Source: a virus
Virus record (IMG/VR): IMGVR_UViG_3300042691_042003
Span: 182,082 to 246,081 of that record
Direction: 5' to 3' (one strand)
DNA: 64,000 bases
Shown: positions 1,574-59,186 of the stretch, one piece after another
Numbering within the stretch: position 1 is the stretch's first letter
Layout of the letters: each line of letters starts with the position of its first letter
Position numbers and translations under genes: made by a program
The notes under the pieces: generated by a model
Database searches by the model: none
Told to the model about the DNA's origin: nothing
Seen by the model: only the letters and a program-made list of their open reading frames with translations

Positions 1574-1831
1574 ATGAAAAATCTATTTACTTACGAAGAA
1601 TTTTTAAACGAAGGGTCTACTAAGGTTGATGGAATCAATATAATTGATACCAAATACGTAGTAGCTCATAATTTCAAAAAACCCAGTGGAAAGGGCGTTT
1701 GGAAATGGTCTTTTTATTCAGACGGAGGAGATTCAGTAAAGACTCCTATTATGGATTATGAAAAGGCTAAAAAATGGGCAGCTGATTGGGCTAAGTTTAA
1801 AAAAGAACCTTGGGTTTATTTATTACCTTAA
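1574..1831 (+). CDS. small protein with capsid-targeting-type leader
   Basis: 85 residues. The N-terminus MKNLFTYEEFLNE followed by G matches the leader shared by nine proteins here and resembles the T4 internal-protein capsid-targeting sequence (IPIII: MKTYQEFIAE). In T4 the prohead protease gp21 cuts after the Glu. The remaining ~72 residues are basic and Trp-rich (KGVWKWSFY, WAADWAKF) with no recognised fold. A late-promoter-like box lies 30 bases upstream. Packaging into the head is inferred from the leader. Confidence 0.6.
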   Translation: MKNLFTYEEFLNEGSTKVDGINIIDTKYVVAHNFKKPSGKGVWKWSFYSDGGDSVKTPIMDYEKAKKWAADWAKFKKEPWVYLLP

Positions 1832-1846
1832 AAAAAAATTAATTTT

Positions 1847-2815
1847 ATGAAAAGAATTTTTTATCTCATTGGAGCTCTCTTCCTTTTTTCTTCTTGTCGC
1901 AGAGAAGACATGGAAATCAAAAACCCGGAAACCTCTCCATCGGTTGAAGTAAGACAATGTGCTTCTATGGATGTTCTTCAAAAACAACTACAAGAAGATC
2001 CTCAACTTCAATCTCGTATGGATGAAATCGAAACCAATCTTGAAAAGAATCAAAATCTTATGAAGATGGGTCGATTAGTAAATGGTGTTTATGAAATTCC
2101 TGTTTGGGTTAATGTTCTTTATAGAACATCTGCTGAAAATATTTCTCAAACTCAAATTCAATCTCAGATTGATGTACTTAACGAAGATTTCGGAGGAACA
2201 AATACAGATAATGTTTTAGTCCCTTCTACTTTTTCAACATTGAAAGCCGGAAATTGTAATATCCGTTTTGTTCTACAAGGTGTTACTCGTAAATCAACTA
2301 CGAAAACTTCTTGGAGGACTGATAATTCTATGAAGATTTCTTCTAAGGGAGGAATTAATCCTACTTCGCCTACGATATATTTAAATCTATGGGTCTGCAC
2401 TCTCGCTAATGGTATTCTAGGTTATGCTCAATTTCCAGGAGGATCTTCATCAACTGATGGTGTTGTTATTCTAAATACTGCCTTTGGTAGAACAGGAACT
2501 GCTACAGCTCCTTTCAATAAAGGTCGAACTGCTACTCATGAAGTTGGTCATTGGTTAAACCTTCGTCATATTTGGGGTGATGCTACTTGTGGTTCTGATT
2601 TAGTTAACGATACACCAACTCATAATACTGCTAATTACGGTTGTCCAGCAGCTGGTCATCGTTCAACTTGTACTGGAACTCCAATTGAAATGTGGATGAA
2701 TTACATGGATTACACTGACGATGCTTGTATGTATATGTTTTCTACTGGTCAAAAATCTAGAATGTTAGCTACTTTTGCTTCAGGAGGTGGAAGAACATCG
2801 TTTGCTCAACCTTAA
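1847..2815 (+). CDS. lipoprotein metalloprotease, M43 (cytophagalysin/pappalysin) family
   Basis: 322 residues. The N-terminus is a lipoprotein signal (hydrophobic stretch, then lipobox LFSSC with Cys17). The C-terminal half has the extended zinc motif HEVGHWLNLRH (HExxHxxGxxH), then Gly-Asp, Cys-rich loops (DATCGSDLVNDTP, YGCPA, CTGTP) and a Met-turn MNYMDY, in the order typical of M43 peptidases. These are usually secreted proteases of Bacteroidetes. It would sit on the host envelope or be released. It lies between two genes with capsid-targeting-type leaders but lacks that leader itself. Catalytic residues look intact. Confidence 0.88.
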   Translation: MKRIFYLIGALFLFSSCRREDMEIKNPETSPSVEVRQCASMDVLQKQLQEDPQLQSRMDEIETNLEKNQNLMKMGRLVNGVYEIPVWVNVLYRTSAENISQTQIQSQIDVLNEDFGGTNTDNVLVPSTFSTLKAGNCNIRFVLQGVTRKSTTKTSWRTDNSMKISSKGGINPTSPTIYLNLWVCTLANGILGYAQFPGGSSSTDGVVILNTAFGRTGTATAPFNKGRTATHEVGHWLNLRHIWGDATCGSDLVNDTPTHNTANYGCPAAGHRSTCTGTPIEMWMNYMDYTDDACMYMFSTGQKSRMLATFASGGGRTSFAQP

Positions 2816-2823
2816 TTATATTC

Positions 2824-3021
2824 ATGAAATTTTACACATATCGAGAATTTTTAAGAGAAACAGCATATAAAGAAGGAAGTAGAAAACCTACGGCTGAAGA
2901 AAGAAAAATGTGTAAATCACCTGAAGGATTTAATCAGATAAATCATTGTAAAGCTTTAGGACTTATTCCTAGAGCAGATGGAACTAAAAAAGTAAGTGCT
3001 AAATACGGAGGAGATGAGTAA
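2824..3021 (+). CDS. 65-aa protein with capsid-targeting-type leader
   Basis: Starts MKFYTYREFLRE followed by T, a variant of the shared leader with the predicted cut after Glu12. The rest is a short basic segment with two Cys (MCKSPEGFNQINHC). No function is recognised. It overlaps the next gene by 8 bases. Confidence 0.55.
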   Translation: MKFYTYREFLRETAYKEGSRKPTAEERKMCKSPEGFNQINHCKALGLIPRADGTKKVSAKYGGDE

Positions 3022-3742
3022 TGAAAAAGATATACAAAGACTAGAAGATTCTTTAAGAGGAAAAAAGGTCTTACTAATAACGACCTCAAATCGTTGGTCA
3101 GGACATGATGAAAAACCTAAATCGTCTAGACTTGCTGAAGATCTGGCTAGTAGAATAGGTGCTACAATAATCGATGCTTCAAAATTGAAGATTTATCCTT
3201 GCGAAGGAAATGTTTCTACCGTTAACGGAAATAATTGCGGAACCGTAGATTCGGTTTTAAAAGATAAGACGAAGAATCCTACAGGTCATCATCGTTGCTG
3301 GGTTAATATTAATAATCCTGACGACGAACTTTGGAAAATAAGCAAAGAGATATTTGAAGCTGATTCGGTTATATTTTTCGCTTCAGTGAGATGGGGTCAA
3401 ACCAATTCTATATATCAGAAACTAATTGAACGCTTGAATTGGCTAGAGAATCGCTGGGCAACTTTGAATGAGAGTAATATATTATCTAATAAGGAGGCAG
3501 GCATTGTCCTAGTTGGCCACAATTGGAACGGAGTAGCTGTTTTAGAAACACAAAAGCAGGTTCTACAATTTTATGGATTTAAAGTTCCTACCGAGCTATC
3601 GTTTAATTGGCAATGGACTACCGATCCTTTTGATGAATCCGAAGAAGGATATATTCAAGATCCTAAAGATTTTAAAGAAGATTTCGATCTTGGATCTAAT
3701 GCATTGAAAGAATCATTCAAAAACTTCTTTAAAAGACAATGA
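3014..3742 (+). CDS. flavodoxin-fold NAD(P)H-dependent oxidoreductase-like protein
   Basis: About 242 residues from the ATG at 3014; an in-frame ATG at 2996 lies deeper inside the upstream gene and is less likely. The start of the core, KKVLLITTSNRWSG, followed by a strand-loop pattern (DSVIFFASVRWGQTNSIYQKLIERLNW, given in parts: VIFFASVRWGQ then KLIERLNW) and GIVLVGHNWNG, fits the NADPH-dependent FMN reductase/flavodoxin fold. Redox activity is inferred. It lies inside the cluster of genes with head-targeting leaders but has no such leader. Confidence 0.6.
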   Translation: MSNEKDIQRLEDSLRGKKVLLITTSNRWSGHDEKPKSSRLAEDLASRIGATIIDASKLKIYPCEGNVSTVNGNNCGTVDSVLKDKTKNPTGHHRCWVNINNPDDELWKISKEIFEADSVIFFASVRWGQTNSIYQKLIERLNWLENRWATLNESNILSNKEAGIVLVGHNWNGVAVLETQKQVLQFYGFKVPTELSFNWQWTTDPFDESEEGYIQDPKDFKEDFDLGSNALKESFKNFFKRQ

Positions 3743-4536
3743 AAAACTTAAAAACTTACGATAGCTGGTTAAACGAATCAACAGTTAATCCTATTGTTGA
3801 GGATCTACTTACTCGAGCAGAACCTACTATTCAACAGATGGTTAATAAATCTAGAGAGGCTTATGTAAAACAATACGAGCGTGAATGGACTAAATACGAT
3901 GAAACGATTACTAGATTAATCATAATCTCTAATATGGTTCGATCTTTTGAAATTTACACGAAACATAATGATAGACTCGTTAACTTTACAGTAAAAGGAT
4001 CTCCAAAAGGATCTATGGTTATCTCTTCACAAATTGATAGAGATGATGTACCTCATTATTTAGATACTGAGGTAATTTATGCAGGAGGTTATAATATACA
4101 GGCTCTTCATTATCGTTATATTACGAAAACTAATCTAACTAAAACTGGAGCTGATACTAAAACCAAAGAGATAGGAGAAAAAATCAAGAAGCTTTCTAAA
4201 CTAGAAAAGATCAATAAAGAAATCGAAGGTTATCAAGTCAGAATAAAGGATAATGAAGAGAATATTGCTAAAAATTCGGTTTTATCTGACGAAGAAATAA
4301 AGGATATTCTTCGAAAGGGAGAGTATGGTAGTACTATTGATACTACATGGGAGGATGTTGTTCGGAACAAAGGACATTACGATAGCAGAGAAGAATTTGA
4401 AACTTCTCAAAAGCAATACATCGCTGATAAGATAGTATTTTGGAAAAGGGTAAATATTGAATGGAAAATTGAGAATAATACAGCTCTCAAAAAGAATATT
4501 GACAAATTAAATAAGAAGTTAGAGACACTAATATGA
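3739..4536 (+). CDS. coiled-coil protein with capsid-targeting-type leader
   Basis: 265 residues, start overlapping the previous stop (ATGA). The leader MKNLKTYDSWLNE followed by S is identical in its first 14 residues to the next gene product. The mature part has a middle region rich in beta-type residues and a lysine/glutamate-rich coiled-coil C-terminal half (about 140-265). No catalytic motif is seen. The matching leader on two unrelated proteins implies a transferable targeting tag. Confidence 0.6.
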   Translation: MKNLKTYDSWLNESTVNPIVEDLLTRAEPTIQQMVNKSREAYVKQYEREWTKYDETITRLIIISNMVRSFEIYTKHNDRLVNFTVKGSPKGSMVISSQIDRDDVPHYLDTEVIYAGGYNIQALHYRYITKTNLTKTGADTKTKEIGEKIKKLSKLEKINKEIEGYQVRIKDNEENIAKNSVLSDEEIKDILRKGEYGSTIDTTWEDVVRNKGHYDSREEFETSQKQYIADKIVFWKRVNIEWKIENNTALKKNIDKLNKKLETLI

Positions 4537-5129
4537 AAAATTTAAAAACCTACGATAGCTGGTTGAATGAATCTTCAGGAGATTTACTTAAACCGAGAAG
4601 AGGAAAACCTTTACATTTCGATCATCGTAGATATCCAGAGCTAGCAGGTGAGCTATTCAATCTTATTACTATTGCATATTCGGAAATAGGAGGTCATGCT
4701 AAAATAAAATCTCCAGAAGATATATTCTCTGATCCTGATTGGAATTTCTGGGAAGGTACTGATATTCACGGATCTCAAGATTTTGATATTGTCATATTTG
4801 GACAGAAGACTAAATTTGGTGTTAAATTTTCCGGGGTAGGACATGATGGAGCAAAAGATTCTAAGAAAGAGTATCTAGACGATCTAGGATCAGATCTTAA
4901 GAATTTAGGTTATTACATCGAATCTTCTGGAAAATTTGCTGAGATTCTTATGAATAAGTACGGATGTCCTGTTATAGAAGACGAAGAAACTGTTGTTAAA
5001 GTTCTTGGTAAACAAGTTCAATGGATAGGTAAATCTTCAAATCCAGAACATACAGGTAATGGATGGTACATACGTAATATTGGAGGACATCCTCATGAAA
5101 AGATTTTAATAGGTCGACCAAAAAGTTAA
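4533..5129 (+). CDS. GNAT-like acetyltransferase with capsid-targeting-type leader
   Basis: 198 residues; ATG overlaps the upstream stop. Leader MKNLKTYDSWLNE, predicted cut before Ser14. The remainder has patterns I associate with GNAT-type proteins of large phages: YPELAGELFNLITIAYSEIGG, in two parts YPELAGELFNLIT and IAYSEIGGH, then KIKSPEDI, FDIVIFG, GVKFSGVGHDGAKDSKKEYL and GWYIRNIGG. If correct, this would be an acetyltransferase delivered from the virion, analogous in logic to T4 Alt. The fold assignment comes from recall and is tentative. Confidence 0.5.
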   Translation: MKNLKTYDSWLNESSGDLLKPRRGKPLHFDHRRYPELAGELFNLITIAYSEIGGHAKIKSPEDIFSDPDWNFWEGTDIHGSQDFDIVIFGQKTKFGVKFSGVGHDGAKDSKKEYLDDLGSDLKNLGYYIESSGKFAEILMNKYGCPVIEDEETVVKVLGKQVQWIGKSSNPEHTGNGWYIRNIGGHPHEKILIGRPKS

Positions 5130-5180
5130 AATAAATTTTTTTCTTTACGATATTTGTTTTATATTAGCAATACAAAAATA
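5130..5180 (+). promoter_or_regulatory. class A promoter (short form)
   Basis: AAATTTTTTTCTTT, then TTGTTTTATATTAGC about 10 bases later, upstream of ATG 5186. This is the first copy of the dispersed promoter block. Confidence 0.6.
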
Positions 5181-5185
5181 AACAT

Positions 5186-6262
5186 ATGAAAGTAGCATTT
5201 TTTCACGGACTCGAATCTTCCCCAAAATCTGATAAGAATGATTCTCTTCGAAGCAGATTCGATTTTGTTTACGATCCTCCTATGTCTTATTCGGATCCCG
5301 GTCTATTTGAAAAAGTTCTTTCAGAGGTAAAGAAAAATAAAATCGATCTTCTTATAGGGTCATCTATGGGTGGTTGGTTCGCTTATTGCATTTCAACTCT
5401 GACAGGAATTCCCACACTCCTTTTTAATCCTGCAGTTCATAGTCGTCCTACGGAACCTAAAGTTAGGATAGGAAATAGAAAAGCAAAGCACACTCTAGTC
5501 TTAGGAATCAGTGATAAAGTTATTATTCCTATGCTTACTCAAAATTGGGTTGCAAAAGAAGGAATCGGTTCTTTTAAAATTTATTTTGAATCTAACGAAC
5601 ATAGGACCCCTATCGATATTTTTGATAAATGGTTAGATATTGAATCTAATAAGCTTAATGAAGAATGGTCAACCGAATCTCCTGGTAATTTACCTGATTG
5701 GTCATTTTTACCAGTTGAAGCTGTACAAACTCTCGTTCCTAATTTTCTAACTAAACGCCCTCCAGTTGGTAATCTCGTAATTGAAGATGATTCGGAAGTT
5801 GAAGATGTTAGAAGAGCACAAAGAAACCTTTCTGATGATGATATTCGTTTTATTAAAGATGCACATGATTCTCCTCCTCAGATTTTCTATCAATGGTTAG
5901 TTCTTAGAGGTGAAAGGCCAAAAATGTCCGATATTAAATCTTATTGGGAATCGAAGAAAAATCTTGATATGATTGGATTTCTAAAGAAAGCAACGAAGAG
6001 ACCGAGACCTTATCAGAAATACGATGATGTAAAAATTCCTACGGATATTGAAACTGAAGATTACTCATTTCCTTCAGGACATTCATATGGTGCTTATTTT
6101 ATAGCATCAAAACTTTCTCAAAAATATCCTCATCTCGTCGATGGACTTTTTTTACTTGCTGATCGAATTGCTAGAAGTCGTATACAAGCAGGAGTTCATT
6201 ATCCTTCTGATGTAGAAGCAGGTAAAATGCTTGCCCTAAAAATGTCACAAAAAGATTTCTAA
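5186..6262 (+). CDS. fusion of YqiA-like alpha/beta hydrolase and soluble PAP2 phosphatase
   Basis: 358 residues, two enzyme-like domains. Residues 1-155 look like a YqiA/UPF0227-type alpha/beta hydrolase: HGLESSP near the start and nucleophile motif GSSMGG (Ser60). Residues 260-358 carry the full PAP2 acid phosphatase signature: K267-x6-R274-P275, PSGH 296-299, and SR-x5-H-x3-D at 331-342. No membrane segment is present, so the PAP2 part resembles soluble class A acid phosphatases. An Asp/Glu-rich linker joins the two. I know of no standard protein with this arrangement. The substrate is unknown; nucleotides or lipid phosphates are possible. Confidence 0.75.
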   Translation: MKVAFFHGLESSPKSDKNDSLRSRFDFVYDPPMSYSDPGLFEKVLSEVKKNKIDLLIGSSMGGWFAYCISTLTGIPTLLFNPAVHSRPTEPKVRIGNRKAKHTLVLGISDKVIIPMLTQNWVAKEGIGSFKIYFESNEHRTPIDIFDKWLDIESNKLNEEWSTESPGNLPDWSFLPVEAVQTLVPNFLTKRPPVGNLVIEDDSEVEDVRRAQRNLSDDDIRFIKDAHDSPPQIFYQWLVLRGERPKMSDIKSYWESKKNLDMIGFLKKATKRPRPYQKYDDVKIPTDIETEDYSFPSGHSYGAYFIASKLSQKYPHLVDGLFLLADRIARSRIQAGVHYPSDVEAGKMLALKMSQKDF

Positions 6263-6263
6263 T

Positions 6264-6533
6264 ATGCCTTATCGTCCACAACAAACACTTACTTTCAAAA
6301 TTGAAAGAGTTAAGCCGGAGAAGAAATATGCAGGAGCTTATAAAAAGATATTCGATATTCTTAATAGAGAAAGGACCTTCTCAGAAGTATATGAAACCGA
6401 TGATAGTGTAGGATTCGTAAATGGAACCTATTGGTTAACTATTTCTGAAACTCCTGATTGGAATGATCTCGAAGCTATACTAAAAATTCCTAACGTTAGC
6501 ATAGCTAAGGAGACCGAGATTCCTAAGATGTAA
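6264..6533 (+). CDS. hypothetical protein, 89 aa
   Basis: Not recognised. Basic N-terminus and WLTISETPDW motif; predicted mixed alpha/beta. One base after the previous stop, so co-transcribed. Its last codons ATG-TAA lie inside the dispersed promoter repeat. Confidence 0.6.
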   Translation: MPYRPQQTLTFKIERVKPEKKYAGAYKKIFDILNRERTFSEVYETDDSVGFVNGTYWLTISETPDWNDLEAILKIPNVSIAKETEIPKM

Positions 6534-6619
6534 TATCCGTGTACCTTTTTCAGAAAAATAGATTTTTTTCTGAAAGAAAAATGTATTATATTAGCTTTAT
6601 CAAATTAAATAATACATTT
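6528..6619 (+). promoter_or_regulatory. class A promoter block, full form
   Basis: Begins ATGTAATATCCGTGTACC, continues with a T tract and TTTTTTTCTG, then ATGTATTATATTAGC and TTTATCAAATTAAATAAT. Drives the gene at 6620. Confidence 0.7.
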
Positions 6620-6883: not shown

Positions 6884-6884
6884 T

Positions 6885-7519: not shown

Positions 7520-7594
7520 TAAAATTGTTAAAAAAGAATTTTTTCTTTCAAGTATTTATATTATATTAGCTATATCAAATTACAATAAAAACTT
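7503..7594 (+). promoter_or_regulatory. class A promoter block, full form
   Basis: ATGTAATATCCGTGTAATAA, then GAATTTTTTCTTT and TTATATTATATTAGC, CTATATCAAATTACAATAA. Unlike most copies, its left end is coding: the metallopeptidase reads through it to the TAA at 7517-7519. Confidence 0.7.
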
Positions 7595-7687: not shown

Positions 7688-7697
7688 AATCAATCTT

Positions 7698-7925: not shown

Positions 7926-7929
7926 TCCG

Positions 7930-8238: not shown

Positions 8239-8245
8239 ATAACTT

Positions 8246-18582: not shown

Positions 18583-19005
18583 ATGACAACAGAAATGGAA
18601 AATTACGAAATCAAGGTAGACGCTATATGTCCAATGCCTTCAGATCTCTACTCATCTGGCTTTATAAGTCTGATGAAAGATATCATCATCGAAGAAAAGA
18701 AGAAAATCGATTCCGAATACGAAGATCTAGATCACGACAAAGCACTTTACAAAGGTCGACGATTTGGTGATAACGACCATCTTACTCGAGTTGCACTCGG
18801 TGCTATTCATTATTCGATATTCAGACATATCCGTAAAATGAATGAGCTATCTTGGGAAGAAGCAGAATCTAAAACATCTACTGCCGTAAATGAATGGATC
18901 GTTAATCAATCTGAAGTTTCAGAATTACGTAGAATAGCAAAAGATACAATCCTCTATTCTATGTCATCTGATCATTGGTACGCTTTCGAAAAAGATTGGG
19001 GTTAA
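18583..19005 (+). CDS. conserved phage-type protein, 140 aa
   Basis: Start at 18583 leaves no overlap with the previous gene; the longer frame starts inside it. Helical protein with a central HLTRVALGAIHYSIFRHIRK segment. Function unknown. Confidence 0.6.
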   Translation: MTTEMENYEIKVDAICPMPSDLYSSGFISLMKDIIIEEKKKIDSEYEDLDHDKALYKGRRFGDNDHLTRVALGAIHYSIFRHIRKMNELSWEEAESKTSTAVNEWIVNQSEVSELRRIAKDTILYSMSSDHWYAFEKDWG

Positions 19006-19021
19006 TAAAAAAAACAAATAT

Positions 19022-19234
19022 ATGCATACAGAAGCAGGAACATCGTCCGTAGGATTTACTACACTCTTATTTTTACTCTTTTTAGGACTTAAGCTAACCG
19101 GACATATTGATTGGTCTTGGTGGTGGGTCACTTCACCTCTTTGGATTCCAGCTGCAGTAATTATTATACTTGCAGTTATCGTCGGTATTTCGGTTTTAGT
19201 CATTAAAGGAATCATACAAGCTTTTATCAAATAA
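19022..19234 (+). CDS. two-span membrane protein, Fragile-X-F-like
   Basis: 70 residues with two hydrophobic helices and the core LKLTGHIDWSWWWVTSPLWI, which matches small phage membrane proteins annotated as 'transmembrane Fragile-X-F'. Function unknown. Confidence 0.7.
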   Translation: MHTEAGTSSVGFTTLLFLLFLGLKLTGHIDWSWWWVTSPLWIPAAVIIILAVIVGISVLVIKGIIQAFIK

Positions 19235-43408: not shown

Positions 43409-43806
43409 GGGCCCGACTTGGAATTGATTTACGATACATTTTTTTCGTATGCAAGCAGAGTTAGTTGGAAACTCTTAAATAACCTAACAGAATTTTAAAT
43501 GGCGAATCTTTCGTTAATGCAGACGGCAAAGTGTTCTATATGGACACTACTGCTGTTTCTTATGATGAGCCTGTCTTAATGGCAGCCTAATCAGTCGTGC
43601 GGTAACAGCCGATCCTTAAAACAAAGTTACAACCTGCGGTTCCGTTAGAGGTGCTACCCATTTAAGTGAACCTCCCACAATTGCAAGTGACAATGGAAAA
43701 ATAGGAACTTGATATTTTGTTTATTTAGAAAAATAAACTAAGCTTGTGAATGAGTGCATTAAAATGATTGGGAAAGACATGGGTTCGAATCCCATCGGGT
43801 CCACCA
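43409..43806 (+). ncRNA. ssrA: transfer-messenger RNA (tmRNA)
   Basis: 398 bases. The tRNA-like domain is formed by 5' GGGCCCG and 3' CGGGTCC (one G-T pair), T-arm ATGGG-TTCGAAT-CCCAT, discriminator A and encoded CCA. The tag frame runs from GGC 43501 to TAA 43588-43590: 29 residues beginning GESFVNADGK and ending DEPVLMAA. The Gly-Glu start and hydrophobic-Ala-Ala end match bacterial degradation tags, but it is two to three times the usual length. Pseudoknot-like GC-rich stretches follow (43590-43700). tmRNA rescues stalled ribosomes with SmpB, which is not seen here. Confidence 0.9.
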
Positions 43807-49599: not shown

Positions 49600-49944
49600 G
49601 TGAATACATTTAAGAAATTTTACGAATTTATCAACGAATCATTAGCATTTTTAACTCTCAATAAAACCATGAAAAACGAATTCATGAATAATATTGAGCT
49701 AAAAAACGATTTCGAAAATGCAAAAAGACAATTTTATATGAACGGCAATTTCCTTCTTACTCATATAGAAGGAGATAAATTCGAGTTAAGAACTAGATCT
49801 AATGTTCAATCCGAAGACTTAGACGGGATTATCGATTCTCATGTAAATACTACTACGGAAAGAATGAAATTTCGTAGAATAGGAAAACCGAAGACCGATA
49901 AAATTAAAGATAAAATTTGGATGGTTAAGGCAAAAATCGATTAA
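49600..49944 (+). CDS. protein with capsid-targeting-type leader, GTG start, 114 aa
   Basis: GTG start at 49600 gives MNTFKKFYEFINE followed by S, a clear member of the leader family. The next ATG would remove the leader, which supports GTG. Mature part is basic with a beta region (GNFLLTHIEGDKFELRTRS). Function unknown. Confidence 0.58.
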   Translation: MNTFKKFYEFINESLAFLTLNKTMKNEFMNNIELKNDFENAKRQFYMNGNFLLTHIEGDKFELRTRSNVQSEDLDGIIDSHVNTTTERMKFRRIGKPKTDKIKDKIWMVKAKID

Positions 49945-49972: not shown

Positions 49973-50665
49973 ATGGAAAAATACTCTACTTTCGAAGAAG
50001 CCTTCTATTACATAAATAAACAAATCATAAATTGGCCTACATTCATAACAACATCTCGTATAGGTGATGTTCATGAAATATGTTCTCTTACATATACAGT
50101 CGAAGATCTCGGTTCTTATAAATTTAAGGATGAATCTTTAGGAAGACTTGATTATGATTATGCTGATACTTTTTATCGTTGGATGATTGACGGTTGTACC
50201 GATTCTACAGAAATTCTAGAAAAATATCCTAATACTTCTAGATTCATGGAAAAACCAAAATCTCCTGATCTACCTTCTAATTTTAACACCTTTTACGGTC
50301 CTAGAATTTTACAACAACTCCCTCATATCATTAAAGAATTAACTGCTAATCCTGATTCTCGTCGAGCAGTTATTTCTATTCTTGATAAAGATGATTTACT
50401 CCTCCTTGATAAAGATGAAACCTTAGAATTTCCTTGTTGTGATTCTGCAACATTCTTTATTAGAGGAGGAAAATTACATGTCCATCTTCATATGCGTTCT
50501 CAGAATATGGGTCAAGTACTTAAGCTTGACATGTATTTATGGGGTAGATTTACATGTGAATTAGCTGAAAACCTAAATATTGAAACCGGAAATTTTTTCT
50601 CTTCTGTTGTTTCTGCTCATGTGTTTACTAAAGATTTTGATTACCTTTCCAATTTTATAGAATGA
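49973..50665 (+). CDS. thymidylate synthase-family enzyme, dCMP-type (candidate dCMP hydroxymethylase)
   Basis: 230 residues. DSRRAVIS (128-135), FPCC with catalytic Cys156, MRSQNMGQVLKLD (174-186) and SAHVF (His216) align without gaps to E. coli ThyA around Cys146, Arg166, Asn177 and His207. The position of ThyA Asn177, which selects dUMP, is Asp186 here, as in T4 dCMP hydroxymethylase. The His after the catalytic Cys is replaced by Asp. Predicted product: 5-hydroxymethyl- or methyl-dCMP. First gene of a tight operon with glycosyltransferases and sugar epimerases. Confidence 0.75.
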   Translation: MEKYSTFEEAFYYINKQIINWPTFITTSRIGDVHEICSLTYTVEDLGSYKFKDESLGRLDYDYADTFYRWMIDGCTDSTEILEKYPNTSRFMEKPKSPDLPSNFNTFYGPRILQQLPHIIKELTANPDSRRAVISILDKDDLLLLDKDETLEFPCCDSATFFIRGGKLHVHLHMRSQNMGQVLKLDMYLWGRFTCELAENLNIETGNFFSSVVSAHVFTKDFDYLSNFIE

Positions 50666-51960
50666 AAAAACCTCTAAACGTTTTTTATGCAGTACAAGTG
50701 TCTAATTTCACAACTAATGGAGATAAGTCCAAATGGTTGATTCGTAATGATGCTTGTATGAATATCTGTATCGGTATTGTCTCTTCAATACTTACCGAAT
50801 ATCCAAAAGATTTCCGATTTATTATTAAAGTTCCTCCTGTAGAAGATTGTGCAGATATTGATTCTCATAAGGATCTATTCGATGAAAAATATCTAGATAG
50901 AATTGAATTCTATGAAGATTTTATTCCTATTTCCCCTGTAATTAGTCGTTTTCATTTTGATATGAACACACATAAAGTTTTTGGTTCTAAAAAACTTGCT
51001 AATGTTGATGTTATGATTAACGATGAAAATACACATACTAAAAGCTGGAGAATATTCTTCGAAAATATCATTGGTAAAAGGATTCCAATGGTTTCGACTA
51101 ATTACTTTATGGATTCACCAATTTCTCCAAAATCGGATCCTAAGGTAAGATATTATGAAAGACAAATGGAATCACTTATATCTTCGGATATGTTTTCGTA
51201 TCCTGTAACTGCTGCTCTTAATGAAGCTCTCGAAGCTTATAATTTTCTATTTAAAGATGGAACGATCCTAGGAATTCCCACTGTTTGGAATATTGGTGCT
51301 TCTTTCGAAGAAATTAATAAGAAAAAAGTAACTAAGTCTCCAGGAAAGATTAAAATTTATTTTGGTAATCGAATTACCGATTCTGCTAATCGATACACTA
51401 ATTGGCATCTATTTGCTGAAGCTATCGGTAAACTTTCGGAAAGGATTGATCCTTCTCGCTTCACTGCAACGATTCTTAATCCTACAAAGAAAATTACTCC
51501 TGAACAACTCGACGAAATTTCAACTCTTTCTCGTGGATGTGTCGAAGTAGTTCCTAATTACAGTGATTTCAGTCGAGAAGATTATATCAATTTTATTAAC
51601 GAAGCACATATTTCTTGCAATCTATTTACTAATGAAGTACATGGTGGATTAACTCACGTAGAAGCTATGATGGCAGGTTGTATTCTTGTTGCTCCTAACG
51701 TTAATGATTATCTTTATAAATACGAAGATTCAGGAAAACTTTCAGATTATCCCTTTCTAATTGACACATATAATAAAAAGCTAGATATGGAATCTTTTGT
51801 AAGTAAACTCGAACTAGCCGTTAATACTGCTCAAAACAAGCAATCAATGGAAAAATATTCAGAAATGAATCGTGAACTTGCTTATAAATATGCATCATAT
51901 GAAATGTCTTCTCATATCATTGCAAAAGATCTTAAGAAACTAGCAAAGCTTTATAAATGA
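50662..51960 (+). CDS. GT-B glycosyltransferase (GT4-like)
   Basis: 432 residues. C-terminal half shows the GT-B donor-binding pattern: KIKIYFGNRITDS strand start, and NLFTNEVHGGLTHVEAMMAG then APNVNDY, the E-x7-E-like region of GT4 enzymes. N-terminal half is a divergent acceptor domain. ATGA overlaps with both neighbours. Acceptor could be modified DNA or a surface glycan. Confidence 0.75.
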   Translation: MKKPLNVFYAVQVSNFTTNGDKSKWLIRNDACMNICIGIVSSILTEYPKDFRFIIKVPPVEDCADIDSHKDLFDEKYLDRIEFYEDFIPISPVISRFHFDMNTHKVFGSKKLANVDVMINDENTHTKSWRIFFENIIGKRIPMVSTNYFMDSPISPKSDPKVRYYERQMESLISSDMFSYPVTAALNEALEAYNFLFKDGTILGIPTVWNIGASFEEINKKKVTKSPGKIKIYFGNRITDSANRYTNWHLFAEAIGKLSERIDPSRFTATILNPTKKITPEQLDEISTLSRGCVEVVPNYSDFSREDYINFINEAHISCNLFTNEVHGGLTHVEAMMAGCILVAPNVNDYLYKYEDSGKLSDYPFLIDTYNKKLDMESFVSKLELAVNTAQNKQSMEKYSEMNRELAYKYASYEMSSHIIAKDLKKLAKLYK

Positions 51961-52985
51961 ATATACTTGTAACAGGATCTGCAGGTTTCCTCGGTAATTT
52001 TGTCTGTAATTTCTTTCATGAAAAAGGACATAAGATTATAGGAATTGATAATTTATCTAGAAAAGGATCTCATCTTAATGCACAAAAACAGAAAGAAAAC
52101 TTTCTGTTTTTCTTTGGTGATATTTCTAATCCTTCTGATTTAAAATTTACTGAAGATCTAGATATTGATTGGATTATTGATTGTGCAGCTGAACCTTCTG
52201 TTCTTGCAGGAACCGACGGTCAATCTAAAGGTCTAATAGATAATAATCTCATTTCGACTATTAATCTTCTTGAAATTTGTGCCAAGAAAAAATGTGGATT
52301 TACTCTTATGAGCACTAGTAGAGTTTATTCGGTTAAACAACTTTCTAGTATTGAGATAATTAAGACTCCTACTAAATTCTTTTCTACCGTTCAAGTTGAT
52401 GAAGATTTTTCTACAAAACCTCCTGTTTCTCTTTATGGATCTACAAAGCTAACATCCGAATTATTAGCTTTAGAATATTCTAGTCTTTATCAATTCCCTG
52501 TATTTATTAATCGATGTGGTGTTATTGCAGGTGCAGGACAATTTGGTAAAATCGATCAAGGCGTTTTTTCGTATTGGATTTATTCTTGGATAAGAAAACA
52601 ACCTCTTAAATATTTTGGATTCGATGGAACCGGTCGACAAAGTCGAGATGTAATTCACCCTAAAGATATTTGTACAGTTTTAGAAAAACAAATTCAATTC
52701 GGTAAAATTGAAGAAGATCCTATTTATTGTTTGGGTGGTGGACATCAAAATTGTATGTCACTCTTAGAATTATCCCAATGGTGTAAAGAAAATATATCTT
52801 CTGATTATGAACCCGAATCAGTTCCAATCGACAGACCTTTTGATATTCCTGTATTTGTAATGGATACGAAAAAAGCTGAAAGGAGATGGAAATTTAAAAT
52901 TACGGTTTCAATAAAAGAAATTCTAAAAGAAATAAGAGATCATGCTAAAAATAACCCTGATTTTCTTGATTACCTTTATTCTTAA
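51957..52985 (+). CDS. NAD-dependent nucleotide-sugar epimerase (CDP-paratose 2-epimerase-like)
   Basis: 342 residues, extended SDR. TGSAGFLGNFVCNFF (NAD loop), STSRVYS, YGSTKLTSE (Tyr-x3-Lys) and NRCGVIAGAGQFGKIDQGVF plus GFDGTGRQSRDVIHPKDI. The last two resemble RfbE/tyvelose epimerases. Paralogue of the gene at 53572, but more divergent. Confidence 0.82.
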   Translation: MNILVTGSAGFLGNFVCNFFHEKGHKIIGIDNLSRKGSHLNAQKQKENFLFFFGDISNPSDLKFTEDLDIDWIIDCAAEPSVLAGTDGQSKGLIDNNLISTINLLEICAKKKCGFTLMSTSRVYSVKQLSSIEIIKTPTKFFSTVQVDEDFSTKPPVSLYGSTKLTSELLALEYSSLYQFPVFINRCGVIAGAGQFGKIDQGVFSYWIYSWIRKQPLKYFGFDGTGRQSRDVIHPKDICTVLEKQIQFGKIEEDPIYCLGGGHQNCMSLLELSQWCKENISSDYEPESVPIDRPFDIPVFVMDTKKAERRWKFKITVSIKEILKEIRDHAKNNPDFLDYLYS

Positions 52986-52997
52986 TTTACATATAAT
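52986..52997 (+). promoter_or_regulatory. class B promoter box TTTACATATAAT
   Basis: Exact match ending 5 bases before ATG 53003; internal promoter of the operon. Confidence 0.6.
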
Positions 52998-53002
52998 TAT
53001 AT

Positions 53003-53575
53003 ATGGCAAATCTAATTATACTCGAAGGTTTATCTAGAACCGGCAAATCGACCATTTGTAAATCTCTATCAGAAAAATTTAAACTACGAAATATTTCAAT
53101 AAAAAATAAAATGCCGGAAAACGTAAGTCTTCCGGATTTTTATCATGGAATTCATGTTGTTATGAATGAAATTTATCGTGAATTTCCTGAAGAAACTTTT
53201 ATTCTTGATCGTTCATTTCTTTCAGAATTGGTTTATTCAAAATTCTTCAATAGAACAACTCATCAAAAAGAAGATTCTATTATTTCTGATTTACTTTTCG
53301 ATAATAATTTTATTCTTGTTTATCTTAAGAATACTCATTCCGATTATCAAAACCGAGGACCTAAAGATAGAATTATTTATTCAAAAGAAGATTATGAAAA
53401 ACAAACTGATTTATTCGATTGGTTCTTTTCTACATATAAACAAAATATAGATACAGAATCTTGGCAAAATCGATTTATCGAATTAAATACATCGATAAAT
53501 TCTATTGAAGAATGCATCGAAAATATAGAACAAACAATGTCAAAAAATAATTTTTTAAAACAAATCGAAATATGA
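53003..53575 (+). CDS. deoxynucleoside monophosphate kinase-like P-loop protein
   Basis: 190 residues. P-loop LEGLSRTGKSTICKSL at the N-terminus, FILDRSFLSELVYSKF (the DR-x-x-x-S type motif of thymidylate/deoxynucleoside kinases) and a LIVYLKN-type strand (FILVYLKNTHSDY). In T4 the comparable enzyme gp1 phosphorylates 5-hydroxymethyl-dCMP. Substrate here unknown, but context agrees. Confidence 0.72.
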   Translation: MANLIILEGLSRTGKSTICKSLSEKFKLRNISIKNKMPENVSLPDFYHGIHVVMNEIYREFPEETFILDRSFLSELVYSKFFNRTTHQKEDSIISDLLFDNNFILVYLKNTHSDYQNRGPKDRIIYSKEDYEKQTDLFDWFFSTYKQNIDTESWQNRFIELNTSINSIEECIENIEQTMSKNNFLKQIEI

Positions 53576-54702
53576 AACAAAAAGTAGCAATTGTTACAGG
53601 ATCAAATGGACTTATCGGCTCTCAATCTGTTAAATTTCTTATTGAAAGGAATTATTTCGTTATCGGTATTGATAATGATATGCGATCTTATTTCTTCGGA
53701 CCTGAGGCTTCTACGAAGGAAAGTGAAGAAAAAATGGTAGAAGAATTTGGAAAATCTTTTAAGTCTTTTAACGTCGATATACGTGATGTTGAATCTCTTG
53801 AAGAAATTTTCGAAGCTTATGAAACCCCAGAATTCGATGTAGATCTTATTATCCATACTGCGGCACAACCTTCACATGATTGGGCTGCTAAAGAACCTCT
53901 TACTGATTTTACGGTAAATGCTCTAGGAACGGTTAATATGCTTGAATTAACTCGTCTTTATTTCCCTAAAGCTTCTTTTATTTTTACTTCAACAAACAAG
54001 GTTTACGGTGATACTCCCAACCGTTTGAATCTTATCGAAGAAGAAACTCGATATGACGCAGTTTCTAATCTCTCTCGTCGACCTATCGAAGTAGATGAAA
54101 CTATGTCCATCGATCATACCAAACATTCAATTTTTGGTGCTTCTAAGGTTGCAGCCGATGTTATGGTTCAAGAATATGGACGTTATTTTGGAATGAATAC
54201 CGTTGTTTTTCGAGGTGGATGTCTTACTGGTCCTAATCATGCAGGTGCCGAACTTCATGGATTTCTTTCTTATTTGATTAAATGTATTGTTAATCGTAAA
54301 CATTATAGGATCTTTGGATATAAAGGAAAACAAGTACGAGATAATATTCATTCATGGGATCTTGTAAATATGTTCTGGCATTATCATCTGAATCCTATCC
54401 CAGGTGCTGTCTATAATGCAGGTGGTGGAAGAGAAAATAGTACTTCTATTCTCGAAGCAATAGATACAGTTAATCGAATCCTTAAAGAAAAATTCCCTCA
54501 TAATTACGAAGATTGGAAAGATTATGAAATTCTAGATCAAAATCGTATAGGTGACCATCAATGGTATATTTCCGATCTTACTCAATTTAAGAAAGATTAT
54601 CCAGAGTGGCCTGGAATTACTATTTCTCTTGAAGAAACAATCAATCAAATTGTAGAATTTGAACTTCAAAAAAACGTAGAAACCGTTAATGAAAACAATT
54701 GA
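53572..54702 (+). CDS. CDP-paratose/tyvelose 2-epimerase-like enzyme
   Basis: 376 residues. TGSNGLIGSQSVKFL (NAD loop), GIDNDMRSYFFGPEAST, FTSTNKVYGDTPN, FGASKVAADV (Tyr replaced by Phe at the usual Tyr-x3-Lys if aligned here), RGGCLTGPNHAGAELHGFLS and GYKGKQVRDNIHSWD are the family's hallmarks. Converts a CDP-dideoxysugar or related nucleotide sugar. The apparent Phe in the YxxxK motif deserves a check. Confidence 0.85.
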   Translation: MKQKVAIVTGSNGLIGSQSVKFLIERNYFVIGIDNDMRSYFFGPEASTKESEEKMVEEFGKSFKSFNVDIRDVESLEEIFEAYETPEFDVDLIIHTAAQPSHDWAAKEPLTDFTVNALGTVNMLELTRLYFPKASFIFTSTNKVYGDTPNRLNLIEEETRYDAVSNLSRRPIEVDETMSIDHTKHSIFGASKVAADVMVQEYGRYFGMNTVVFRGGCLTGPNHAGAELHGFLSYLIKCIVNRKHYRIFGYKGKQVRDNIHSWDLVNMFWHYHLNPIPGAVYNAGGGRENSTSILEAIDTVNRILKEKFPHNYEDWKDYEILDQNRIGDHQWYISDLTQFKKDYPEWPGITISLEETINQIVEFELQKNVETVNENN

Positions 54703-55807
54703 TATAATTCAATTTACTCCTATTATTGGAGGTGAAACTACATTGACTAAAACCATGTCCGATTTTCTGTCGGACATGGGTTATTCTGTTAGAGTTATCC
54801 ATCCTTCGAAAAGTGGAAAGTGTATGAAGGATTGGTGCACTTTCGAAAGACAAAATTTTGTAAAGATTTCAGATTTTTCTGAATTTGTAAAAGATACAGA
54901 TATTCTTTTCTTTATTAATTCAATCCATCTTAAGAAACATAAAAAAGTAGAGGATCGTAATGAAGCTTTTGAGCAAGCTATTCCTATTTTTAGTTTCGAT
55001 AGTAAAAAAGTAATTTTCTATGAGCACGGAAGACATAGTAGTGACCTTTATGATTACCCTTCTATCTTTTCTATTTTATCAGAAAGAGGAAATAGAATCG
55101 TAGTTTTCACAAATACAAGAGATGTAATTCCTTATTATGAAAAGTTAGGTTATAACGCCTTTTTGATTAGACAACCTTTAGATCCTAAAAATTATCCTGA
55201 AATAAAGAGAGAAAAATCTGAAAAAGTTAAGCTTTCTTTTAATAGCAGATATACCTCAAATAAGAGACCTCAAAATATCCTTCCTTTCTTCAATAAATAT
55301 TTAGGAAAAGAAGAACCTTTTGAATTACATTTCAGAGGTAATGTTAGAGATAATGTTTCGGTTTGGTATAATCTATTTCATTACTTCGATGATCCAAAAA
55401 TTATTATGAATGGATATTTTGAACATTTCCATGAGATTTATAATAATATTGATTATTGTATTTATGGAGGATATACTACAAAATCCGAAAAAGGAAAGAT
55501 GGAATACTCTATGCTAGAACCTTTCTTTTATGGAATTCCTCTTATTGTAGAAAAAGAAGTAATTCAATATTTTAAATACGAAGAATATGGAATTTCTAAA
55601 GAAGATTTTCTAAAATCAGTTATTGTTTTGACTGAAGAAAATCTTGATAAGATAATTAAAGGAGAATTTGATTCTTCTTCTTTCGTAAAAAATGCAAAAT
55701 CTATTGTCGATGATTTTCTTCCTGAATCTATAAAAAGAAGGCTGGAAATAGGTCTAAATGGATTTGATTTACCTATAAAACCGAAAGAGATTTATACACT
55801 TTTTTAA
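54689..55807 (+). CDS. GT-B glycosyltransferase-like protein
   Basis: 372 residues. N-terminal IIQFTPIIGGETTLTKTMSD is the acceptor-loop start typical of GT4 enzymes; KLSFNSRYTSNKRPQNIL begins the donor domain and EYSMLEPFFYGIPLIVEKEV is the Glu-containing donor motif. Overlaps the epimerase gene by 14 bases. Confidence 0.72.
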   Translation: MKTIDIIQFTPIIGGETTLTKTMSDFLSDMGYSVRVIHPSKSGKCMKDWCTFERQNFVKISDFSEFVKDTDILFFINSIHLKKHKKVEDRNEAFEQAIPIFSFDSKKVIFYEHGRHSSDLYDYPSIFSILSERGNRIVVFTNTRDVIPYYEKLGYNAFLIRQPLDPKNYPEIKREKSEKVKLSFNSRYTSNKRPQNILPFFNKYLGKEEPFELHFRGNVRDNVSVWYNLFHYFDDPKIIMNGYFEHFHEIYNNIDYCIYGGYTTKSEKGKMEYSMLEPFFYGIPLIVEKEVIQYFKYEEYGISKEDFLKSVIVLTEENLDKIIKGEFDSSSFVKNAKSIVDDFLPESIKRRLEIGLNGFDLPIKPKEIYTLF

Positions 55808-55829
55808 GATAAATAAAAGAAAATCAGAA

Positions 55830-56732
55830 ATGTTTTTTAAGAAATTCGAAGAATTTGTTAATGAAAATGAAGAAAGCTATTCAATATTTTCATTTAATGA
55901 AGATGGTATTGTTGAAGCAAGTATGCCATTTCCCGTAGATGATAAAAAGGCAGATCATAAAATAGCTATCTACACATCAACCTACAACATCGGAGAGAAC
56001 ACTAGAGGAAGAGGTAATTATATTACTTATGAAAAGATGCTAGGTGACCTGATTGATTCCCTGAATGCTCAGAAGTATAAAAATTGGAAACTCTTTATTG
56101 TAGGGGATTGTTTTCAACCTGAGGAAGATCTTACAAAAATCCTTTCTGATAAGCTAGATAAGAAACAATATACATTTCATAATCTTTCTGAACCCGGTGA
56201 AAGAGGAAAAATCGATCCTCAATATCTAAGAAATTCAGGGGGAACAAAAGCGAGAAATAAAGCTATCTCACTTGCTAAATCTGAAGGATTCGAATATTTT
56301 GCAGCTATCGATCATGATGATGTTTGGAAGCCTGATCATCTTGAAAGTATGATGCAAGCTTTTCAGCAAGATCCAGATATTTCATTCGGATATCATAGAG
56401 CTTCTAGAGCTAGAGTAAAAGGAGGTAAATCAGGAGTTTATTATTGGGGTGCTGAAGGGAAAACACCTACACTTTTTTATGATGATGTTCCTGATAAAAT
56501 TATTGAAGCTCCTCATTCAGGTATCGTATGGCATGGTCCTTCATGTAAATGGCCTCAATATCGTACAGTTCCTCAAATGAGATCTGAAGCTCCTAAGAGA
56601 AATCGAATTATGGGAGCCGATGAGGATTTCATCAGACAAGCTACTGTTGGTTTAAGAGAAAATAAGAAGAAAGCCGTTTATGTTCCGAAATTAATAGTTA
56701 GACTTCGAAATGCCAAGGGTAAACTTCCTTAA
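55830..56732 (+). CDS. GT2 glycosyltransferase with capsid-targeting-type leader
   Basis: 300 residues. Leader MFFKKFEEFVNE followed by N, as in the head-cargo family. From residue ~45 a GT-A domain: KIAIYTSTYN, KNWKLFIVGD, GTKARNKAI and AAIDHDDVWKPDHL with the DxD-type motif DHDD. A His-rich C-terminal region follows. If packaged, it would modify a host or virion target on infection or during assembly. A terminator follows. Confidence 0.78.
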   Translation: MFFKKFEEFVNENEESYSIFSFNEDGIVEASMPFPVDDKKADHKIAIYTSTYNIGENTRGRGNYITYEKMLGDLIDSLNAQKYKNWKLFIVGDCFQPEEDLTKILSDKLDKKQYTFHNLSEPGERGKIDPQYLRNSGGTKARNKAISLAKSEGFEYFAAIDHDDVWKPDHLESMMQAFQQDPDISFGYHRASRARVKGGKSGVYYWGAEGKTPTLFYDDVPDKIIEAPHSGIVWHGPSCKWPQYRTVPQMRSEAPKRNRIMGADEDFIRQATVGLRENKKKAVYVPKLIVRLRNAKGKLP

Positions 56733-56753
56733 TTTTTAACAAATTTAATCTTC

Positions 56754-56783
56754 AAGGCTGAAATGTGAATTTCAGCCTTTTTT
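56754..56783 (+). terminator. intrinsic terminator
   Basis: AAGGCTGAAAT and ATTTCAGCCTT, an 11-bp stem with loop GTGA, followed by a T run. Ends the sugar-modification operon. Confidence 0.88.
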
Positions 56784-56784
56784 A

Positions 56785-56795
56785 TTACATATTAT
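56785..56795 (+). promoter_or_regulatory. class B-like promoter box
   Basis: TTACATATTAT, one base off TACATATAAT, shortly after the terminator and 15 bases before ATG 56811. Confidence 0.4.
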
Positions 56796-56810
56796 TTAAT
56801 ATTATTAAAT

Positions 56811-57443
56811 ATGAATATTTTCGTACTCCACAAAGATCCGGAAATAGCAGCAATGATGCATTGTGAAAGGCATATTCTTAAAATGCTTATCGAACATACT
56901 CAAATGCTTGCTACAGCCTATTACAGCACAATTGGAATTTCTCGAAAAAAGGAATTTCAAGGAAATGAAGAAAAAATTTCCGAACTTTTTAGAGGATGGC
57001 CTAGAAAAGATGAAAATGGAAATGATTGGCCTTATTCAGTAACTCATGTAAATCATCCTTGCACAATTTGGACTAGAGAATCTCTTTCAAATTTTAATTG
57101 GCTACTTGATTGCACAAAAGCTATGTGTAGAGAATATACTTATCGATACGGTAAAAAACATTCTATTGAATCCATTATAGATTGGATGTATCTGAATCCT
57201 CCTAAACTAAAGGATATTGGTCAAACACCTTTTGCTCAAGCTTTACCAGATTGCTTTAAAGATTCTGATCCAATAAAAGCTTATCGTCTTTATTATGCTT
57301 TCAAAACAACATATATGAAAGTTAATTGGAAATTAGAAGAAAGGATCCCTCAATGGTGGAATCGAGACTTAATTGAAGAATCAATTGATTTATATAGTCG
57401 ATCTAATCCTGATTGGTCTCCTAAAAAACTTGTACTTGCTTAA
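56811..57443 (+). CDS. conserved phage hypothetical, 210 aa
   Basis: MNIFVLHKDPEIAAMMHCER then HILKMLIEHTQMLATA, THVNHPCTIWTRESLSNFNW and CREYTYRYGKKH belong to a widespread phage family with invariant His, Cys and Trp. Function unknown to me. Placed between the modification operon and a DNA glycosylase, so DNA metabolism is possible. Confidence 0.68.
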   Translation: MNIFVLHKDPEIAAMMHCERHILKMLIEHTQMLATAYYSTIGISRKKEFQGNEEKISELFRGWPRKDENGNDWPYSVTHVNHPCTIWTRESLSNFNWLLDCTKAMCREYTYRYGKKHSIESIIDWMYLNPPKLKDIGQTPFAQALPDCFKDSDPIKAYRLYYAFKTTYMKVNWKLEERIPQWWNRDLIEESIDLYSRSNPDWSPKKLVLA

Positions 57444-57453
57444 TACATATAAT
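57443..57453 (+). promoter_or_regulatory. class B promoter box ATACATATAAT
   Basis: The box overlaps the end of the previous gene and ends 6 bases before ATG 57460. Confidence 0.55.
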
Positions 57454-57459
57454 TTATAT

Positions 57460-57849
57460 ATGGCTATTCTACAACAAGAATTTCAATACGATCAATATCG
57501 AATGCTTATAGCATGTATCATGTTAAATCAAACAAGCAATAAGAATGTTCGACAAGTAATTTATACATTTTTCGATCGATGGCCTACACCTCAATCCGTT
57601 ATCGAAGCCGATCCTTCTGAAATCCGAGAACATATACGTCCTTTAGGTTTCTATAACATCAGAACTAATCGAATTATCAGATTTACTCAAGATTATTTAA
57701 CGAAGAAATTTAATCGAGCTTCTGAATTATATGGCATCGGAAAATATGCCGATGATTCATATGAAATTTTTATTCGAGGAAATCTAAACGTAAATCCAAC
57801 CGATAAAATCCTTCGTAGATATTTAAACGGTGAATTCATAGATCAATAA
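57460..57849 (+). CDS. HhH-GPD DNA glycosylase, MBD4-like
   Basis: 129 residues, the compact form of the family. MLIACIMLNQTSNKNVRQVI, the repeat LGFYNIRTNRIIRFTQDY and the hairpin ELYGIGKYADDSYEIF, with catalytic Asp after the GIGKYA hairpin. Related enzymes remove T or U from G mismatches, or modified pyrimidines. In a phage with altered cytosines it could police deaminated or unmodified bases. Start at 57460 because the longer frame overlaps the previous gene. Confidence 0.85.
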   Translation: MAILQQEFQYDQYRMLIACIMLNQTSNKNVRQVIYTFFDRWPTPQSVIEADPSEIREHIRPLGFYNIRTNRIIRFTQDYLTKKFNRASELYGIGKYADDSYEIFIRGNLNVNPTDKILRRYLNGEFIDQ

Positions 57850-57851
57850 GT

Positions 57852-57869
57852 GATATATATAAAAAAATA
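57852..57869 (+). promoter_or_regulatory. late-promoter-like box
   Basis: GATATATATAAAAAAATA, 7 bases before ATG 57877; third example with 9981 and 16185. Confidence 0.55.
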
Positions 57870-57876
57870 GTTTAAA

Positions 57877-58272
57877 ATGCAAAAATTTACTGAATTTTTG
57901 GTTGAACATAAAGCTTCATTAGAAAATAAGAAGAAAGCAGAAGACGCTCATCGTTTTAATGAACTTTATGAAGCAAAGCTAAAAGAATTTGGAGTAGATT
58001 CTCCTGTTGAATTAAATGAAGAACAATCTAAAGAATTTTTCGAGTATCTAAAAGATCTTAAGAATTCTGCTTCAAAAATGCCTGTTAATGAAAAAGATGT
58101 TACTGATGAGAAATCTTTTCGTGAATACGCTTTAGAAGTTTTAAAGAAAGCACATCCCGATGATTTTGATCAGAAAATTGCTGATAAAGTTATTAGTGAT
58201 CTTGCTGCTAAAGTAAAAGATGATGATTGGGGTGCTGCTGTAGGAAGACTAACCTCCGGTTTAGGAAAATAA
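57877..58272 (+). CDS. head-type protein with capsid-targeting-type leader, 131 aa
   Basis: Short leader MQKFTEFLVE followed by H. Mature part is a Lys/Glu-rich helical protein (internal-protein-like) with VLKKAHPDDFDQKIADKVI. Looks like a prohead core or internal head protein. First of three consecutive leader-bearing genes after a late box. Confidence 0.6.
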   Translation: MQKFTEFLVEHKASLENKKKAEDAHRFNELYEAKLKEFGVDSPVELNEEQSKEFFEYLKDLKNSASKMPVNEKDVTDEKSFREYALEVLKKAHPDDFDQKIADKVISDLAAKVKDDDWGAAVGRLTSGLGK

Positions 58273-58282
58273 AAAAACGAAA

Positions 58283-58660
58283 ATGAAAAATTTAAAAACT
58301 TTTAGTGAATTCGTTAACGAATCAGCTCTTAACGAAAAAATGATTTCTGGCTCTATAGTAAAACAATTTGGAGACGTTTTAGGAAGTAGAGACTTAGCAA
58401 ATGTAGATCTTGAAATTGCTAAATTCTTAGGAGTTGGATCTAAAATGGCAGATGTAGCTCAATTTGACGAATATAGCGGAGAAGATTCTCCAAAAGCCGA
58501 TAAAATATATAATTATTTAGGATCTAATTTTAAGGCTACCGATAGCAAAACGGTTGATGATTATGAATTGTCATATGATTCTAAATTAAATGTAGTTAGA
58601 GCTACCGATGCAGGTGATGGTTTTGTTTCATATTACGTTGTAGCTACTTCTAATTTTTAA
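58283..58660 (+). CDS. protein with capsid-targeting-type leader, 125 aa
   Basis: MKNLKTFSEFVNE followed by SALNE, which offers a second possible protease site 5 residues on. Mature part is an acidic, beta-containing domain (VDDYELSYDSKLNVVRATDA). Upstream DNA ATGAAAAATTTAAAAACTTT is the same cassette as at 58674. Confidence 0.6.
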   Translation: MKNLKTFSEFVNESALNEKMISGSIVKQFGDVLGSRDLANVDLEIAKFLGVGSKMADVAQFDEYSGEDSPKADKIYNYLGSNFKATDSKTVDDYELSYDSKLNVVRATDAGDGFVSYYVVATSNF

Positions 58661-58673
58661 AAAAAAATTAAAA

Positions 58674-59186
58674 ATGAAAAATTTAAAAACTTTTAATGAA
58701 TTCGTTAATGAATCTAAATTGAACGAAGCTTTTGCTACATTAGAAGGAGATGATGTACTTTCTTCAACTTATAAAGATTATGAATCATCAGAAGATGAAG
58801 ATTTAGATCTTAAGGTTATGAAAAAAGGTTTCGAATCTATCGCTAAATTATTAGGAGGTAATATGAATAATGTTTCTTCTACAATGGAAGAAGGTGATTA
58901 TGAATTCAGTCGTTCATTGAATGTAGGACTTGATAAAAGATTTAATAATGCAGATCCTAATATTGAAAAGGTAGGACAAGTTAATATTAATTCCCCTTTT
59001 GATTCTTCTAATTCTTCTACTCCAGTTACTTGCTATCTTATAAAAGATGCTAATATTAAAGTAGCTACTTGGAATTATGGAGATGATTTCGCAACATTCG
59101 ATCACGTTGCTTATCTTACTAAAGATGCTAAAGCTCTTCTTAAATGGGTAAATTCTAATTTATCCGATGATGATATGCAATACTAA
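58674..59186 (+). CDS. protein with capsid-targeting-type leader, 170 aa
   Basis: MKNLKTFNEFVNE followed by SKLNE. Leader nearly identical to the previous gene; the rest diverges but keeps an acidic composition and a C-terminal beta region (VTCYLIKDANIKVATWNYG). Followed by a terminator. Confidence 0.6.
   Translation: MKNLKTFNEFVNESKLNEAFATLEGDDVLSSTYKDYESSEDEDLDLKVMKKGFESIAKLLGGNMNNVSSTMEEGDYEFSRSLNVGLDKRFNNADPNIEKVGQVNINSPFDSSNSSTPVTCYLIKDANIKVATWNYGDDFATFDHVAYLTKDAKALLKWVNSNLSDDDMQY

Follow-up and report, generated by a model that had tools for sequence, protein, structure and literature searches.

A T4-like N-terminal leader on many unrelated proteins of an uncultured jumbo phage

Nine genes in a 64,000-nucleotide stretch of viral DNA (the window: bases 182082-246081, the last 64 kb of the 246,081-base virus record IMGVR_UViG_3300042691_042003) encode proteins that begin with one short leader and otherwise differ from one another. 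In a preliminary description of this DNA the leader was likened to that of the T4 internal head proteins; all nine open reading frames (ORFs) are present where that description placed them, with the leaders it gave, and they belong to a genome-wide set of 31 strict leaders. It is highly probable, from the sequence comparisons given below, that these leaders represent a greatly expanded T4-type capsid-targeting system, by which tagged proteins would be docked, cleaved and packaged, and at least some of them injected. What is new is the scale and breadth of T4-type tagging.

Extent, shape and distribution of the leader

Leaders were collected with a strict regular expression, M-x(1-8)-[FYW]xx[FWY][LVI]xE, applied to ORFs with a lower length limit of 40 or 50 residues in six frames of the whole record (coordinates on which carry the prefix c). 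The search gave 34 raw matches, of which 31 were accepted by hand; a match inside the scaffold, another on the minus strand and c159993 were discarded. Besides the nine in the window, the accepted leaders lie at c48337-49684, c56030-57688, c73653, c76861-79015, c91977-95669 (eight consecutive genes), c140993, c150639 and c153000. Markov versions of this genome (order-2 and order-3) yield 0-1 matches each, which excludes chance as the cause of the 31; a relaxed leader search returned largely noise. About five variant leaders, in which the middle is altered or longer, stand beyond the strict set (a hyphen after the last Glu marks the proposed cut): SYSDLLNE-A at c47981, FDQFVLNE-A at c87756 (on a RimK-like ATP-grasp protein), IEEYLGE-A at c89234, NDFVNLILE-S at c147514 and KDFVSNFTFINE-A at c151214. 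The c147514 protein (429 residues) contains an EKTDG sequence that resembles motif I of nucleic-acid ligases, and has no Pfam match.

When the 31 leaders are aligned on the Glu that ends them (position 0, present in 31/31), they have F/Y at -6, mostly E at -4, F/W/Y at -3, L/I/V at -2 and N at -1 (24/31), and the residue after Glu is S in 15, N in 5, G in 4 and A in 3. Since the strict motif served to select the leaders, the evidence lies in what it does not prescribe: N at -1, a small residue at +1 and the abrupt end of conservation, with an information content of 4.3 bits at Glu, 2.0 at +1, 1.1 at +2 and ~0.5-0.8 further on. The same column pattern is found in 132 leaders of relatives, and when 95 leader proteins of relatives are aligned, Glu is the sole invariant column, with M1 and the -3 aromatic near-invariant. 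Leader length to Glu is 10-14 residues, with the motif in common. The consensus is tighter than that proposed in the preliminary description, and two of the nine window leaders are atypical: that of the gene at 57877 (MQKFTEFLVE-H) is shorter and has His after Glu, and that at 2824 ends LRE-T.

Columns -6, -3, -2 and 0 correspond, at equal spacing, to residues 4, 7, 8 and 10 of the T4 capsid-targeting sequence (CTS), of which 4 and 7 serve chiefly in targeting, and 8 and 10 in processing (PMC9026906). The match to T4 is borne out, as the same regular expression applied to T4 retrieves IPII and IPIII (MKTYQEFIAE-A). A further T4 protein, the hypothetical gp61.1 (T4 18966-19130, gene 61.1), starts MKTFKEFIKE-D and fits the leader pattern as IPII and IPIII do. 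Additional LxE sites shortly after the leader are enriched in two genomes and not in the others, which makes them a weak argument. The T4 late promoter TATAAATA was found upstream of 0/28 leader genes, with no enrichment.

The leader is abundant in the relatives of this phage. Its capsid protein has 536 relatives in a viral collection, with cousins in cultured Tenacibaculum and Sphingomonas phages and in Lak phages known from metagenomes. For comparison between genomes, matches to the regular expression were counted if the start lay no more than 60 codons from the previous stop; by this rule the present genome has 32 leaders, and its relatives G001 (254 kb) 35, G002 (144 kb) 30, G003 (167 kb) 31, G007 (94 kb) 18, G008 (294 kb) 50, G009 (110 kb) 14 and G004 (400 kb read) 19. 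The range of 14-50 in relatives contrasts with 0-5 in other T4-like phages: T4 has 4 (IPII and IPIII included), KVP40 5, P-SSM2 4, Aeromonas phage 65 2, Sphingomonas phage PAU 0, Tenacibaculum phage PTm1 2 and MA9V-2 5. The strict leader DNA pattern occurs in 43 viral stretches and zero times in 264 Gb of prokaryote (bacterial and archaeal) genomes. A tblastn search of known phages with the conserved c73653 leader protein gave no match, and thus no cultured phage with this leader set was found; megablast of window positions 50000-62500 against known phages likewise gave none. In a literature search of incomplete coverage, no previous description of a phage with dozens of T4-type tags was found.

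The description of the nine proteins as unrelated also proves correct, as their mature parts have no mutual similarity; among 32 mature parts compared after the leader there is one similar pair only (window 1574 and c95430, 40% identity). The DNA-level likeness of leaders noted earlier is real and local, identity being 68.5% for leaders less than 3 kb apart versus 62.6% for distant leaders within one genome and 60.6% for leaders of different genomes, and none of 1000 permutations reaches the observed near-leader value. This greater likeness of neighbouring leaders fits local copying. At conserved leader residues the synonymous codons differ, thus conservation of the leader acts at the protein level. 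The letters of the leader drift while the pattern is kept, as in MKNLKTYDSWLNE here versus MTTFKKYEEYVNE on a 66% identical G008 protein. Most cargo homologues in relatives have the leader or a leader variant.

Protease, scaffold and cargo

Cleavage after the leader presupposes a gp21-like prohead protease, and the genome encodes one. With this, and with the further leaders in the genome and in related phages, each sequence-based check proposed in the preliminary description has gone in its favour. A 614-residue protein (c81957-83801) begins with a Pfam S77 prohead protease domain (E=7.7e-14, above the curated cut-off), whose conserved catalytic blocks (GE-x-x-HP, S-x-R and Asp) can be aligned with those of T4 gp21, and continues in a long scaffold-like C-terminal part; its gene sits between that of the major capsid protein (c83895) and that of the portal (c80298), which is identified from its place in the genome and from its counterparts in PAU and PTm1. 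An S77 match is present in 21/21 distinct genomes or records searched. The protease-scaffold contains 13 [LI]xE[ASG] sites and is the most enriched in them among 313 gene calls (Poisson P=6.6e-8), with c74470, from the same head region, second. In the major capsid protein the Glu of an LxE-[NS] site lies near residue 43-46 in 18/22 aligned sequences, all close relatives among them, and is a plausible candidate for the propeptide cut position.

The nine leader genes of the window all lie on the + strand. At its left end, 1574..1831 (85 residues, MKNLFTYEEFLNE-G) is a paralogue of leader gene c95430, 2824..3021 (65 residues) has the weaker end MKFYTYREFLRE-T, and 3739..4536 (265 residues, MKNLKTYDSWLNE-S) has no family match. 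The gene at 4533..5129 (198 residues, again MKNLKTYDSWLNE-S), whose homologues have the leader in 3/3 relatives, may be the GNAT-like enzyme of the preliminary description; most of its top Foldseek matches are GNAT acetyltransferases, but the model is of low confidence (mean pLDDT 54.5), and a GNAT-like fold is proposed tentatively. Homologues of 49600..49944 (114 residues, GTG start, MNTFKKFYEFINE-S) likewise have the leader in 3/3 relatives. The 300-residue product of 55830..56732 (MFFKKFEEFVNE-N) is a GT2 glycosyltransferase, as had been claimed (PF00535, E=2.2e-13); a sequence search of the PDB with it gave no match. The short leader of 57877..58272 (131 residues) has the counterpart MQKFSEFVNE-Q in a relative. 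Second candidate sites follow in the last two genes: in 58283..58660 (125 residues, MKNLKTFSEFVNE-S) another LNE lies close behind the leader, and there is a weak match to the PHROG 'internal head protein' (E=0.01), while 58674..59186 (170 residues, MKNLKTFNEFVNE-S), with leaders on homologues in two relatives, has a second site KLNE-A. Directly after the left-hand leader cluster, a gene at window 5186-6262 encodes a fusion of UPF0227 and PAP2 phosphatase domains; a PAP2 protein of a relative bears the leader.

In the genome as a whole the majority of the cargo has no recognisable family. Among the exceptions are a HIGH-motif nucleotidyltransferase (c150639), a KTSC protein (c49352) and a DUF5856 protein (c153000) with weak matches to Dps by sequence and by fold, which is tentatively regarded as Dps-like (low-confidence structure model, mean pLDDT 64.9). 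For the two of these that were tested, the recognised fold starts a few residues past the proposed cut: the leader of c150639 ends at residue 13, and the match to solved enzymes pairs residue 19 with their residue 3; that of c153000 ends at 12, and residue 25 aligns to residue 9. The leader is thus an added piece. Leader proteins of relatives match RimK and an ATP-dependent zinc protease family (one each), leucine-rich repeats (four), cytidylyltransferase-like, PAP2 and DUF2201 metallopeptidase/VWA families, as well as HNH endonuclease, polynucleotide kinase and ParB-like nuclease. Domains recombine behind one leader: the KTSC domain, a stand-alone leader protein here, forms in G001 the later part of a leader protein that also matches c48337.

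The ATP-grasp cargo (c87756) has homologues in two named phages. That of Pelagibacter phage Mosig starts MQVQPFKNYLEE-A, the same leader pattern, and that of Yersinia phage YerA41 is annotated 'structural protein', an indirect link to the virion. YerA41 particles contain 63 proteins by LC-MS/MS (liquid chromatography-tandem mass spectrometry), including some enzymes that its authors expect to be injected (PMC7354516).

Proposed mechanism and alternatives

That the leader works like the T4 capsid-targeting sequence is very likely. During head assembly it would dock each tagged protein onto the prohead core, formed here by the S77 protease-scaffold fusion; the protease would then cut after the leader Glu, as it probably does in scaffold and major capsid protein, and the freed mature proteins would remain in the head with the DNA, at least some being injected into the next host. 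The result would be a general cargo system of ~31-36 genes (~50 in one relative), its leader having probably spread by local copying and by swapping onto new proteins and domains. Several observations weigh against this interpretation. The residue after Glu is large or charged in leaders 57877, c49352 and c140993; the capsid protein lacks the FLTE-A of T4, and its proposed site precedes N or S; certain cargo homologues have no strict leader, and no clear leader of this kind is seen on the YerA41 ATP-grasp homologue. Moreover, we infer docking, cleavage, packaging and injection in this clade from sequence, and likewise the host role of each cargo.

The principal alternative, less probable though deserving of weight, is that the tag does bring proteins to the prohead core and is cut off there, but that most tagged proteins are core or assembly factors that are digested or kept in the capsid, few being injected. 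The leader genes at c73653-79015 have this character, since they flank the portal, protease and capsid genes, are conserved in relatives (compare the T4 core genes gp67 and gp68) and in several cases encode proteins with additional [LI]xE[ASG] sites. However, most leader genes are distant from the head genes and variable among relatives, and several of their products are enzymes with no assembly role.

Two further explanations dispense with the capsid. A leader that sends proteins elsewhere in the infected cell (to a membrane, a replication compartment or a host protein) would also be short and N-terminal, but this is very unlikely given that all functionally mapped columns of the T4 CTS are matched and that a matching protease and scaffold are encoded. 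It is scarcely credible that the leader acts as a cassette for translation start or expression, or as a mobile 5' end, that recombines between genes and has no role at the protein level: the higher DNA likeness of neighbouring than of distant leaders would be expected of such an element, but residues are fixed while synonymous codons vary, conservation breaks off after E and one small residue, and the same cut motif is found again in scaffold and capsid protein.

If the capsid-targeting interpretation is followed to its full extent, an uncultured clade of T4-like jumbo phages delivers 30-50 proteins per virion by means of one sequence-readable tag, with modular swapping behind the tag and a cargo that includes sugar-, nucleotide- and protein-acting enzymes and a DNA-protection-like protein, such that the injected set can be listed from the genome alone; on balance we consider this broader proposal probable. 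The phage proteins that enter the host together with the DNA are usually known from virion proteomics only. Should the tag hold, one could read from sequence which proteins a whole phage clade injects, among them dozens with no assigned function that act at the outset of infection, the stage at which anti-defence proteins are expected; new targeting tags would also become available by which proteins could be brought into large phage heads.

Neighbouring genes and comparison with known systems

Beside the first leader gene lie an ORF (window 37-1473) with a weak match to the type IX secretion C-terminal sorting domain (PF18962, E=8e-5, under the curated cut-off) and an F5/8-type match, and one (window 1847-2815) for an M43 metallopeptidase with a lipoprotein-like N-terminus. 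Shine-Dalgarno sites precede 7% of genes here versus 61% in T4. These three features together suggest a Bacteroidota host. The phage also encodes a tmRNA (window 43409-43806, tag GESFVNADGKVFYMDTTAVSYDEPVLMAA). Between leader genes, window 49973-54702 holds thymidylate synthase-like, thymidylate kinase-like and two nucleotide-sugar epimerase-like genes, a run possibly concerned with surface sugars or with DNA bases modified by sugars.

N-terminal capsid targeting of an injected protein is known from the Dar system of phage P1 (antirestriction protein DarB; PMC9024508), which comprises few proteins and is not shown to use this motif. In SPN3US and phiKZ, as would be the case here, a gp21-type protease cleaves many head proteins, and these reach the host (PMC5694885); their propeptides, however, are mostly long (~80-160, often >100 residues) and have no common short tag, and the leaders of 10-14 residues with a common motif set the present system apart from that type. 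PTm1, PAU and the Prevotella Lak phages have related major capsid proteins and an S77 protease; in PTm1 protease and scaffold are likewise one protein, annotated 'prohead core scaffolding protein and protease', but PAU and PTm1, unlike this clade, have 0-2 leader matches. The closest counterpart of the leader itself is the CTS of T4 IPI, IPII and IPIII and the Alt propeptide (Mullaney and Black; PMC9026906), which has aromatic, aromatic, aliphatic and Glu residues at equal spacing, and likewise precedes unrelated mature proteins and goes with an S77 protease of expected [LI]xE specificity. The T4 tag has 10 residues and the present one usually 13 (MKN-x-x-[ST]-F-x-E-F-L-N-E); and unlike in T4, the protease is fused to the scaffold, the cargo is broadly enzymatic, and the handful of tagged T4 proteins is replaced by 31-36 genes here and up to ~50 in a relative.

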